Assembly (NCBI GenBank): GCA_014859225.1
Contig: JACUUP010000019.1
Coordinates: 1 to 18,282, forward strand
Direction: 5' to 3'
From: Candidatus Aerophobota bacterium
GTDB taxonomy: Bacteria > Aerophobota > Aerophobia > Aerophobales > B3-G15
Length of the DNA stretch: 18,282 bases
The notes beneath the pieces were generated by a model. That model searched no databases. It saw nothing but the letters and a program-made list of their open reading frames with translations, and had not been told where the DNA came from. Both the position numbers and the translations under genes were made by a program. This document shows, piece after piece, positions 12,626 through 17,909 of this stretch. The stretch's first letter is position 1. Each line of letters starts with the position of its first letter.

Positions 12626-13603
12626 ATGGACCAAAGGAACAGATACACCTTAGATTTTGAAAAGCCGCTCATTGAGCTGGAAAACAAAATCCAGGAACTT
12701 ATGGGTTTAACGGAAAAAGAAGGGATAGACGTTAAAGAAGAGATCAAGCATCTGGAGATGCGCCTCAAAAATCTGGAGCAAAAAATTTTTCTTAATCTAA
12801 CTCCCTGGCAAAGAGTTCAACTGGCAAGACATCCCGCAAGACCTAAAACTTTGACCCTGATTGATTTGATATTTGATGAATGGCTTGAGCTACACGGCGA
12901 CAGACTTTTTTCTGATGACCAGGCTATAGTGACCGGCCTGGGAAAAATGAATGAACACAGAGTTGTATGGATGGGACACCAAAAAGGAGAATCCATCAAG
13001 GAAAATCTCTCTCGCAACTTCGGCATGGCACATCCCGAAGGATATAGAAAAGCTAAGCGGCTTATGAATCTTGCTGAAAAATGTAGCCTGCCCGTGGTAA
13101 GTTTCATAGATACTCCCGGAGCCTATCCAGGAATAGAAGCCGAACAAAGAGGGCAAGCCGAGGCAATTGCTGCCAATCTGGAAAAAATGTCTCAACTTAA
13201 AGTGCCAATAATCGTCATTATCATTGGTGAAGGAGGAAGCGGGGGAGCTCTGGGAATTGGAGTGGGAGACAAGCTTTTAATGCTGGAGAATGCTGTATAT
13301 TCGGTAATCTCTCCTGAGGGATGTGCAGCAATCCTCTGGGATGACCAGAACAAAATAGAAGAGGCCGCCTCTGCCCTGAAATTAACGGCAAATGACCTTT
13401 TGAAACTTGACATAATAGATGGAATAATCCCTGAGCCGCAGGGAGGAGCCCAGAGAGATGTGGGAAAAACAGCAAATAATATAAAAAAAGCGATTCTAAG
13501 GGAACTGGAAGCTTTGAGAACAATGCCTGTGGAAGAGCTTATTTTAAGAAGAAAGATTGGATATCGGCAGATGGGAAAAACAAGAGGTGAAGAAAATGGC
13601 TAA
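12626..13603 (+). CDS. accA: Acetyl-CoA carboxylase carboxyltransferase subunit alpha
   Basis: The 325-residue protein is close in length to E. coli AccA (319). With AccD it transfers the carboxyl group from carboxybiotin to acetyl-CoA, giving malonyl-CoA for fatty acid synthesis. Diagnostic stretches are RHPARPKTLTLIDLIFDEW (68-86), NFGMAHPEGYRKAKRLM (131-147), FIDTPGAYPGIEAE (160-173), and GEGGSGGALGIGVGD (201-215), which forms an oxyanion/CoA-site glycine loop. It is preceded by the usual coiled-coil N-terminus. There is no accD fusion, and accD is not in the window. The start ATG comes 3 bases after the previous stop, with AGGAGA at 10 bases. The stop overlaps the gyrB start by 8 bases. 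Confidence 0.96.
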   Translation: MDQRNRYTLDFEKPLIELENKIQELMGLTEKEGIDVKEEIKHLEMRLKNLEQKIFLNLTPWQRVQLARHPARPKTLTLIDLIFDEWLELHGDRLFSDDQAIVTGLGKMNEHRVVWMGHQKGESIKENLSRNFGMAHPEGYRKAKRLMNLAEKCSLPVVSFIDTPGAYPGIEAEQRGQAEAIAANLEKMSQLKVPIIVIIIGEGGSGGALGIGVGDKLLMLENAVYSVISPEGCAAILWDDQNKIEEAASALKLTANDLLKLDIIDGIIPEPQGGAQRDVGKTANNIKKAILRELEALRTMPVEELILRRKIGYRQMGKTRGEENG

Positions 13604-15485
13604 CGAGTATAAAGCTGAACAGATAAAGGTCTTAAAGGACCTGGAAGCTGTAAAAAGAAGACCAGGAATGTATGTAGGTTCAACGGGACCAAGAGGACTT
13701 CACCACCTTGTCCATGAAGTGGTTGATAACTCCATTGATGAGGTCCTGGCTGGATACTGCAACGAAATCAAGGTTATTATCCACTCTGACAATAAAGTAA
13801 CGGTGAGTGATAATGGAAGAGGTATCCCTGTAGATGAGCATCCTGACTATAAAAAATCTGCTCTTGAGCTGGTAATGACCGTGCTGCATGCGGGGGGGAA
13901 ATTTGATAACAAGACCTACCGGGTTGCAGGAGGACTGCATGGGGTAGGTGTTTCTGTAGTTAATGCATTATCAAGTTATCTGGAGGCAACCATTTACAGA
14001 GATGGAAAAATCTGGAGGCAAACTTACTCAAGAGGAAAACCAACAAGTCCTGTGGAAATTGTAGGAGATATAGATGAAGGAAAAACTGGAACAAAAATTA
14101 CCTTCGCTCCTGATGGGGAAGTTTTTGAATCTATTGAATTTGAATATGATAGGGTGGCGCGTAGGTTAAGGGAGCTGGCTTTTCTAAATGCAGGGGTTAG
14201 CATTGAAATTAAAGATGAAAGGTTCGCTCGGGAAGAAAAATTCAAATATGAAGGAGGTATAGTAGAGTTTGTCAAACATCTTAACAAAAGTAGAGAAGTG
14301 GTGTTTCCCGACCCAATTTACCTCCAGGGAGAAAAAGGAGATGTCCAGGCTGAGGTAGCAATCCAGTATAACCAGAGTTTCATCCTGGATATATTTGCCT
14401 TTGTTAATGACATTAATACTCAAGAAGGAGGAACTCATCTTTCTGGATTCAAGGCTGCTCTTACCAGAGCAATAAATGACTATGCAAAAAGGACAGAAAA
14501 TAAAGAGTCAATTCTCATGGGAGAGGATATCAGGGAAGGGCTCACCGCTATAATAAATATAAAAATGCCCGACCCTCAATTTGAAGGTCAAACCAAAACA
14601 AGATTGGGTAACAGTGAGGTTAGAGGGATAATAGATTCAATAGTTTATGAAGGTTTGACCCGTTACTTTGAAGAAAACCCATCTACTGCTAAAGTTATCC
14701 TGCAAAAAACAATCTCAGCATCACGCGTGCGCCTGGCAGCCCAAAAAGCACGAGAGCTTACCCGTAAAAAAGAAGCTCTGGGTGGAGGTTCCATGCCAGG
14801 AAAATTAGCTGCTTGTTCTGAAGATGACCCTGAAAAAAATGAAATTTACATAGTAGAAGGAGACTCAGCTGGAGGTTCTGCAAAACAGGGAAGGGATAGA
14901 AAATTTCAGGCAATCCTTCCCATTAAGGGAAAGATAATCAATGTAGAAAAATCCCATCTGGTAAAAGTTTTGAGTAATACTGAAATTAAGGCTATTATTG
15001 CCGCAGTTGGCACCGGAATAAAGGAAGAGTTTAATATTCTTAGATTGAGATACCACAAAGTCATTTTGATGAGCGATGCAGATGTTGATGGAGCACATAT
15101 AAGGACACTTCTTTTAACCTTTTTATATAGATACATGCCTGACTTGATAAAGCAAGGACATGTATATATTGCCCAACCTCCCCTCTACAAGGTTACCAAT
15201 AAAAATAAGGAATGTTTTCTATACAGTGATGCGGAACTCAATAGATTAAGAGAAAAGCTGAAAGATGACAAAATTGATGTCCAGAGATACAAAGGGCTGG
15301 GAGAGATGAATCCTGAACAGTTGTGGAAAGCAACTATGGACCCCCAAACAAGGACTTCATACAGGGTAACTATTGAGGATGCGATTGAGGCTAATGAGTT
15401 ATTTTCTATGTTAATGGGAAAAGATGTGGAGCCACGCAGAAAATTTATTGAAGAACACGCCACCGAAGCTGAATTAGATATATAG
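13596..15485 (+). CDS. gyrB: DNA gyrase subunit B
   Basis: The ATPase subunit of gyrase, 629 residues, is of the short type without the insert found in the 804-residue E. coli protein. The GHKL ATP site shows catalytic Glu41 and Asn45 (EVVDNSIDE), Asp72 (SDNGRGIP) and GGLHGVGVSVVNALS. The transducer follows, then the TOPRIM domain with Glu421 (EGDSAGGSAKQGRDRKFQ), Asp494 and Asp496 (DADVDGAH), and the tail QRYKGLGEMNPEQLW. I choose ATG 13596 because MANEYKAEQI matches family N-termini and GAGGTG (13584-13589) sits 6 bases upstream. A start at 13557 would add 13 unrelated residues. It overlaps accA by 8 bases and lies 12 bases before gyrA. It is complete and undamaged, unlike gyrA. Confidence 0.97.
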   Translation: MANEYKAEQIKVLKDLEAVKRRPGMYVGSTGPRGLHHLVHEVVDNSIDEVLAGYCNEIKVIIHSDNKVTVSDNGRGIPVDEHPDYKKSALELVMTVLHAGGKFDNKTYRVAGGLHGVGVSVVNALSSYLEATIYRDGKIWRQTYSRGKPTSPVEIVGDIDEGKTGTKITFAPDGEVFESIEFEYDRVARRLRELAFLNAGVSIEIKDERFAREEKFKYEGGIVEFVKHLNKSREVVFPDPIYLQGEKGDVQAEVAIQYNQSFILDIFAFVNDINTQEGGTHLSGFKAALTRAINDYAKRTENKESILMGEDIREGLTAIINIKMPDPQFEGQTKTRLGNSEVRGIIDSIVYEGLTRYFEENPSTAKVILQKTISASRVRLAAQKARELTRKKEALGGGSMPGKLAACSEDDPEKNEIYIVEGDSAGGSAKQGRDRKFQAILPIKGKIINVEKSHLVKVLSNTEIKAIIAAVGTGIKEEFNILRLRYHKVILMSDADVDGAHIRTLLLTFLYRYMPDLIKQGHVYIAQPPLYKVTNKNKECFLYSDAELNRLREKLKDDKIDVQRYKGLGEMNPEQLWKATMDPQTRTSYRVTIEDAIEANELFSMLMGKDVEPRRKFIEEHATEAELDI

Positions 15486-15497
15486 GGGAGATAAAAA

Positions 15498-16664
15498 ATG
15501 GCAATAGAGGAAAAAGATAATCTTGTCTTTCTTGAAGATGAGATGAAAAAATCCTACTTAAGCTACGCCATGAGCGTAATTGTAAGTAGGGCCCTTCCTG
15601 ATGCAAGAGACGGACTAAAACCAGTTCAAAGAAGAATACTGTATGCTATGACTGAGCTTGGCCTTTTGCCAAACAGGCCCTACCGTAAATCAGCCCGTGT
15701 AACCGGGGAGGTTTTGGGGAAACTACACCCACACGGGGATATGGCAGTTTACGATGCTCTTGTCAGAATGGCACAGGATTTTTCCCTCCGACACCCCCTC
15801 ATAGACGGTCAAGGCAATTTTGGCTCGGTCGATGGGGACCCACCTGCAGCCATGAGATACACAGAGGTAAGACTTGCACCTTTAAGCAATGAGCTTTTAA
15901 ATGACCTTGACAAGGATACTGTTGATTTTATCCCTAACTTTGACAACTCTTTAAAAGAGCCTGTAGTGTTACCTGCTCGCTTTCCCAATCTACTAATAAA
16001 TGGAGCATCAGGAATAGCAGTGGGAATGACGACTAACATACCCCCTCACAACCTTGCTGAGGTAACAGATGCCTGCATAGCCATGATAAATAATCCCGGC
16101 ATAACCTGCGACGAAATTCTTCAGTTTGTAAAAGGTCCGGATTTTCCCACCGGGGGTATTATTCTTGAGAGCGAAAATTTAAAAAAGGCTTACGAGGAAG
16201 GGAGAGGCAAAATAACTCTTAGAGGAAAAAGTTCCATAGAAAGAGAGGATGGAAGGGAAAGAATTATCATAGAAGAGATTCCCTATCAGGTAAATAAAAC
16301 TACCTTAATTGAAAAAATTGCCGATCTTGCTCATGAAGAAAAGATAAAAGGGATAAAAACTATAAGAGATGAATCAGATAGAACAGGAATAAGGATTGTT
16401 ATAGAGGTATCCCGTGTATTTACCTCGGAGATTATACTTAACCAACTTTATAAACATACCCCCCTGCAAACAACCTTTGGAATCATTCTTCTTGCTATTG
16501 TTAATGGCAAACCCGAGCAGCTCAGCCTGGCCAAAGCTATCAAATATTACCTTGAGCATCGCCGGGAGGTACTTATTCGCCGTACCCGATACCTTCTGGA
16601 TAAAGAAGAGAAAAAAGCACACATACTGGAGGGACTAAAGAAAGCTCTATCAAGAATTGATTAA
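15498..16664 (+). CDS. gyrA: DNA gyrase subunit A, N-terminal part, ending at a premature in-frame TAA
   Basis: This is the breakage-reunion part of GyrA, 388 residues before TAA 16662. It has [21 protein letters not shown] in the winged-helix region, the quinolone-determining region [13 protein letters not shown], and catalytic Tyr121 in [28 protein letters not shown] belongs to the tower region. It ends at KKALSRID, where family members continue with Glu-Val-Ile. The natural length is about 800 residues, so this piece lacks the rest of the coiled coil, the C-gate and the DNA-wrapping domain. The ATG follows GGGGAG (15485-15490) at 7 bases, directly behind gyrB. Met82 stands where E. coli has Ser83. 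The frame is otherwise intact, so a point nonsense change, sequencing error or readthrough are the options. Confidence 0.93.
16662..16664 (+). other. In-frame TAA interrupting gyrA at codon 389
   Basis: The codons around it read GAT TAA GTA, where GyrA proteins usually have Asp-Glu-Val. One G-to-T change (GAA to TAA) would explain it. Both sides are in the same frame and together give a complete 803-codon GyrA, so no indel is involved. Confidence 0.9.
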
Positions 16665-16766
16665 GTAATTGAGATTATAAAGACCTCTTCTCACCCTCAG
16701 GAGGCAGAAAAAAGCCTGATTGCAAGACTGAATTTATCCGAAACCCAGGCAAACTCTATCCTCAAT

Positions 16767-17909
16767 ATGAGACTGCAAAGGCTCACCAGCATAGAAAGAG
16801 AAAAGGTGGACAAAGACCACAAGGACTCTGTTAAAAATATAGAAGAATTTAAGGCTATCCTGGCAAGTGATACTAAAATATGGGGGATAATTAAAGATGA
16901 ATTAAAGGAAGTTAAGGAAAAATATGCCAATCCTCGCAGAACTAAAATTGAAGAAGGAGAATTAGAAGGACTGGAATTTAAACCAGAAGACCTTATTGAA
17001 AAAGAAGATGTTGTGATAACTATTACCTATAATGGATACATAAAATATACCCCTCTTAGAGCCTACACAAGACAACAAAGAGGCGGAAAGGGAATGAGTG
17101 GAATTTCTCTCGGGAAAGGGGATGTGGCAAAAAACCTCATCCTCTGTAATACCCATTCTACCCTTCTTTTCTTCACAAACTCTGGAAAAGTTCATGCTAT
17201 TAAAGTCTATGAGATTCCTCAAAAAGGAAGAGGTGAAAGGGGAAGAGCTATCGTTAACTTTGTGCAGCTGGGTGAGGATAAAACTGCTGCCACCATAACC
17301 ATAGATGATATTTTTGATTCTAACAAGTTCCTTCTCATGGTAACTAAAAAAGGGATGGTCAAAAAAACCTCCCTGAAGCAATTCTCAAATCTCAAGCGGA
17401 CAGGCATAATAGCCATAAAGCTAAAGGAAAAAGATGAGCTTGTCAAGGTGCTTCTTAGTTCAGGCGAGGATGATTTAATCCTGTCCACCAAAAAAGGAAT
17501 GAGTATCAAATTCTCAGAAAAAGATGTCCGTCCTATGGGAAGAGCATCAACAGGAGTAAAAGGAATGCGTTTATCTACAGATGATGAAGTTGTAGATGCG
17601 GTTCTGGTTGAGGACGAGGCAGACCTTTTCACCATAACTACGAAAGGCTACGGCAAACGCACTCCCTTATCTAGTTATCGTAAAATAAGACGAGGAGGAA
17701 GGGGAGTTAAAAATATTAAGCTTCATCCTGAAAGAGGTGAAGTTGTAGCTACTAAAAAAGTGAAAAAAGATGATGAAATCATAATAATAACCCAAAAGGG
17801 GAAAAGCATAAGACTCTGGGCAAAAAATATACGCCAGACAAGAAGAATTACTGCAGGATGCAGGATTATAAAATCGGATAAGAATGATAAGGTTATTGCG
17901 TTAGCATAA
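16767..17909 (+). CDS. gyrA: DNA gyrase subunit A, C-terminal part (same frame as the N-terminal part)
   Basis: GyrA homology resumes immediately after the premature stop (from 16665, VIEIIKTS...), but the first possible start codon in frame is ATG 16767. As a separate gene it would lose 34 conserved residues, including the NLSETQANSIL helix, and start inside NMRLQRLTS without a ribosome binding site. That argues against a truly split gyrA. The part contains the C-gate end, EDVVITITYNGYIKYTPL at the start of the wrapping domain, the GyrA box at 17073-17093 (QQRGGKG; the second position is Gln where Arg or Lys is usual) and the six-bladed pinwheel repeats, ending DKVIALA. It stops at TAA 17907-17909. 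The wrapping domain looks undamaged, consistent with selection on the full-length protein until recently or now. Confidence 0.85.
   Translation: MRLQRLTSIEREKVDKDHKDSVKNIEEFKAILASDTKIWGIIKDELKEVKEKYANPRRTKIEEGELEGLEFKPEDLIEKEDVVITITYNGYIKYTPLRAYTRQQRGGKGMSGISLGKGDVAKNLILCNTHSTLLFFTNSGKVHAIKVYEIPQKGRGERGRAIVNFVQLGEDKTAATITIDDIFDSNKFLLMVTKKGMVKKTSLKQFSNLKRTGIIAIKLKEKDELVKVLLSSGEDDLILSTKKGMSIKFSEKDVRPMGRASTGVKGMRLSTDDEVVDAVLVEDEADLFTITTKGYGKRTPLSSYRKIRRGGRGVKNIKLHPERGEVVATKKVKKDDEIIIITQKGKSIRLWAKNIRQTRRITAGCRIIKSDKNDKVIALA

Follow-up and report, generated by a model that had tools for sequence, protein, structure and literature searches.

The question raised by this locus is whether a stop codon that interrupts the gyrA gene of a Candidatus Aerophobota bacterium belongs to the organism or only to its sequence. 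The window, as we call the whole stretch of 18,282 nucleotides that was analyzed, is contig 46 of a draft genome of 1.81 Mb in 273 contigs, which is estimated to be 91% complete. The gyrA frame is located on the plus strand between positions 15498 and 17909 and comprises 803 codons and a terminal stop. Translation confirmed the preliminary description of the window, according to which this frame is complete except for a single TAA (16662-16664, plus strand, codon 389, in the context GAT TAA GTA) and contains no frameshift. The stop is truly present in the given sequence. In the organism itself it is most likely absent or not fixed, and the broken essential gene of which the preliminary description spoke is not established as biology.

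A profile search with the gyrA model of NCBIfam (TIGR01063) yielded one match before the stop, at model positions 5-383, and a second one after it, at 385-795. Since the two matches abut at the stop, nothing is missing or shifted there, in agreement with the perfect homology that had been noted on both sides. The first part of the frame (15498-16664, plus strand, 388 codons and the TAA) encodes most of the breakage-reunion domain (PF00521, profile positions 1-352). The rest (16665-17909, plus strand) encodes the end of this domain and the C-terminal beta-propeller blades (PF03989), and terminates with a normal TAA. Both domains are present, as is required for membership in the gyrA family. Due to the TAA at codon 389 each half by itself stays below the equivalog cut-off of 877 bits (663.6 and 433.6 bits, compared with 1125.8 bits for an intact relative), and the gene has no uninterrupted frame that reaches it. 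The gyrB frame directly upstream (13557-15485, plus strand) is intact, as had been stated before, and remains open to 15485; its true start is likely the ATG immediately before ANEYKAEQ. Rfam families were not found within the window. Further upstream, between 366 and 7818, the translations show by eye a same-strand run of genes resembling sugar metabolism, with an isomerase-like protein, two FGGY-type kinases, a hydroxyacid dehydrogenase, a zinc alcohol dehydrogenase and another dehydrogenase-like protein.

The comparison of the interrupted codon with sister genomes, which had been proposed as a check, revealed Glu at codon 389 in the three closest relatives, all of which have uninterrupted frames (GAG in L037, GAA in L040 and GAG in L038). 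TAA is one substitution away from this Glu codon family. In the wider set of relatives the same position is occupied by Glu, Lys, Arg, Ala, Met, Asn, Gln or Asp, and the aligned place in E. coli GyrA by Pro. The site is therefore not strictly conserved, and the earlier assignment of the stop to a conserved Asp-Glu-Val site cannot be maintained, since other residues occur there outside the three nearest relatives. A search of IMG/VR contigs for this sequence, with the first position of the stop left free to be any base, gave no match.

The 413 codons after the stop gave a dN of 0.17 and a dS of 1.6 in comparison with L037, which is close to the values for two intact relatives compared with each other over the same part (dN 0.17, dS 2.5). 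With a dN/dS of about 0.1 the post-stop half is under purifying selection as in the relatives. As dS is near saturation, this argument leans mainly on the lack of acceleration. The branch leading to the window gene has a length of 0.194 after the stop and of 0.123 before it, and the resulting ratio of 1.58 is to be compared with 1.55 for L037, 1.86 for L040 and 2.39 for L038. Neither dN/dS nor the branch ratios against these three relatives indicated relaxed selection past the stop, so that the post-stop part has not evolved as unused DNA. Because this half is under constraint and its branch is not lengthened, the stop is either very young or not fixed.

Taken together, we consider it highly probable that the stop is a single-base consensus error or a minor-strain allele in an ordinary single-copy gyrA. 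One substitution would have turned a Glu codon into TAA. It could stem from an error in sequencing or in the assembly consensus, or it could be a nonsense allele of a minor strain or of dead-cell DNA that the metagenome assembler captured into the consensus; in either case the living population would make normal full-length GyrA. The reads, or the majority of the population, would then differ at 16662, where the base itself is known from the assembly only. The preliminary description had listed three options without a choice among them. All tests made agree with the base-call or population artefact, whereas a second gyrA was contradicted within the assembly and by the single copy in 16 genomes of the same order, a TAA-decoding tRNA was not found among the 33 tRNA genes read, and a split gene remained unsupported.

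Other internal stops were sought in 587 kb of the genome, sampled in 81 stretches and corresponding to about a third of it. Comparison with the proteins of two other Aerophobota genomes (about 44,500 codons) revealed one convincing intragenic stop, that of gyrA; on inspection the remaining ones were located in antisense frames, in tRNA regions or in sequence before starts. A scan for coding signal on either side of each stop, which is independent of reference sequences, placed the gyrA stop second of 838. Within the best 25 of these 838, gyrA alone combines long frames of strong coding signal on either side with the lack of a start over the next 34 codons. In two others of this group a start follows after 50 and after 26 codons, with right-hand frames that are short and negative in overall score, and the remaining strong cases of the scan represent neighbouring genes whose start follows the stop within a few codons. 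Stops of this kind are therefore not widespread in the genome, as would be the case with one isolated base error, one minor allele or one real mutation. Of random single-base changes in gyrA about 4.4% create a stop, so that a few dozen base errors should include one nonsense error. A single real mutation would likewise leave one nonsense change in the sampled third, which counts against the preferred explanation. Among the matches listed from a wider search of 386 genomes, which are the best ones and do not provide a full base rate, a domain-internal stop occurred in this genome only.

Lone stops were also observed in a second Aerophobota genome (G061, isolate CSMAG_2676). Neighbouring essential genes there contain three TAG codons in frame (L039:423, 3015 and 3042): gyrB has one, at a Lys position, and gyrA the other two, at conserved Tyr positions 9 codons apart. 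In an aminotransferase gene (PF00155) a TAA lies in frame (L241:8093) close to the C-terminal end, and the conserved sequence continues beyond it. TAG is an ordinary terminator in G061 (37 of 126 long frames), and a CUA anticodon was not seen among the tRNAs read there. These stops look like further draft-assembly nonsense and would be expected if such errors occur in draft assemblies from this group. The gyrA frame of genome G013 ends at the same point, with matching coordinates, and G013 is probably the same genome as G061. The infC gene of G061 (L251:3013-3585, encoding IF3) follows a class II tRNA synthetase gene and has no in-frame ATG, GTG or TTG ahead of its conserved N-terminal domain, which suggests a non-standard start codon, as is usual for infC.

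It is improbable that gyrA is really split, with GyrA 1-388 and a second polypeptide, started on the same message at CTG 16716 or ATG 16767 and carrying the rest of the coiled coil and the beta-propeller, assembling into gyrase. Such an arrangement would agree with the purifying selection on both halves, and the break, which from structural knowledge and the alignment with E. coli GyrA we take to lie near the coiled-coil tip, may be at a place that tolerates a split. The first in-frame ATG after the stop (16767-16769, plus strand) is indeed without a Shine-Dalgarno-like sequence, as had been stated. This statement does not extend to the in-frame CTG at 16716-16718, 51 bases downstream of termination at codon 389, which has a weak candidate signal, AGGAGG (16699-16704), 11 nt ahead. 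No other plausible internal start has a Shine-Dalgarno-like sequence, and this element (16699-16718, plus strand) is a putative one. The non-canonical start considered earlier thus has a candidate but lacks support: CTG is a rare start codon, and hexamers of the AGGAGG type are common in coding DNA of this genome (0.67 per kb for AGGAGG, with two in gyrA). As the AGGAGG also encodes part of Gln-Glu-Ala in place, its position before the CTG is probably a coincidence. In no relative of the order is gyrA split at this site. Furthermore, the two polypeptides would lack 17 to 34 residues of the C-gate region, yet the codons concerned do not evolve faster on this branch than in relatives in which they are translated. 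In the 34 codons from the stop to the first ATG, 5 changes are specific to the window gene, and two intact relatives have 5 and 3, which would argue, if weakly, against an old split.

Less likely still is a real, fixed TAA at which a suppressor tRNA or near-cognate decoding would permit enough readthrough to full-length GyrA. The conserved downstream frame would be explained in this way, and a suppressor tRNA could sit in the missing 9% or so of the genome. However, in the search for a TAA-decoding tRNA that had been suggested, none of the 33 tRNA genes found in the 91% complete genome (identified with Infernal, anticodons by ARAGORN) had a UUA anticodon. Release factors of the RF1 and the RF2 type are both present with open frames. 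TAA is the commonest terminator in the sampled stretches, where it ends 184 of 353 long frames, and no other convincing internal TAA was found in the sampled third of the genome. Folding of the RNA around the stop gave z-scores from -0.10 to -0.40 against shuffled sequences and thus no unusual structure. On these data three related candidates were rejected: loss of a release factor, a readthrough-promoting RNA structure, since shuffles fold equally well, and a genome with reassigned TAA or dependent on a suppressor, since a UUA tRNA was not found and TAA is the main stop and does not occur inside many genes. General recoding of TAA had already been regarded as unsupported, and this judgement stands. 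A search of the literature returned nothing relevant on Aerophobetes stop codons, gyrA nonsense readthrough or split gyrA, and nothing usable on assembly-error stops.

The assembly contains one A gene of type IIA topoisomerases (PF00521), this gyrA, and the gyrB in the window is its sole PF00204 gene, with no second gyrB or parE. A second gyrA or parC, or a topoisomerase IV that could supply the function as had been considered, was found neither in the 91% complete assembly nor in 16 genomes of the same order, each of which has exactly one PF00521 gene. Since 9% of the genome is missing, the single copy is subject to a caveat, which this pattern in the relatives lessens. As topoisomerase IV was not seen in the order, a dead gyrA would mean a cell without a type IIA enzyme, and with one gene of the gyrA/parC type and one gyrB a dispensable gyrA is unlikely. 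That a recent nonsense mutation inactivated gyrA and another topoisomerase took over is hardly credible, because nothing beyond the stop itself speaks for it, while the lack of a second PF00521 protein and of relaxation past the stop speaks against it.

If the stop were real, the A subunit of this gyrase would be split, or an essential single-copy gene would contain a lone suppressed stop. At present, with a consensus error or minor-strain allele as the preferred explanation, the locus mainly calls for caution, since nonsense codons can occur in essential genes of Aerophobota draft assemblies from metagenomes. Compared with known systems, the gene corresponds to DNA gyrase subunit A (TIGR01063 and NF004043 equivalogs; PF00521 and PF03989): its halves match the model end to end, it adjoins gyrB and it is present in single copy, and it differs by the in-frame TAA at codon 389. 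With stop codon recoding or natural suppression by a UAA-reading tRNA it shares an in-frame stop followed by conserved sequence, but it differs in that such a tRNA was not found in this genome, the release factors are normal, TAA is the main stop and a single site is concerned. The resemblance to nonsense errors and minor alleles in metagenome-assembled genomes consists of one substitution without a frameshift, a frame conserved beyond the stop and a fragmented draft assembly.
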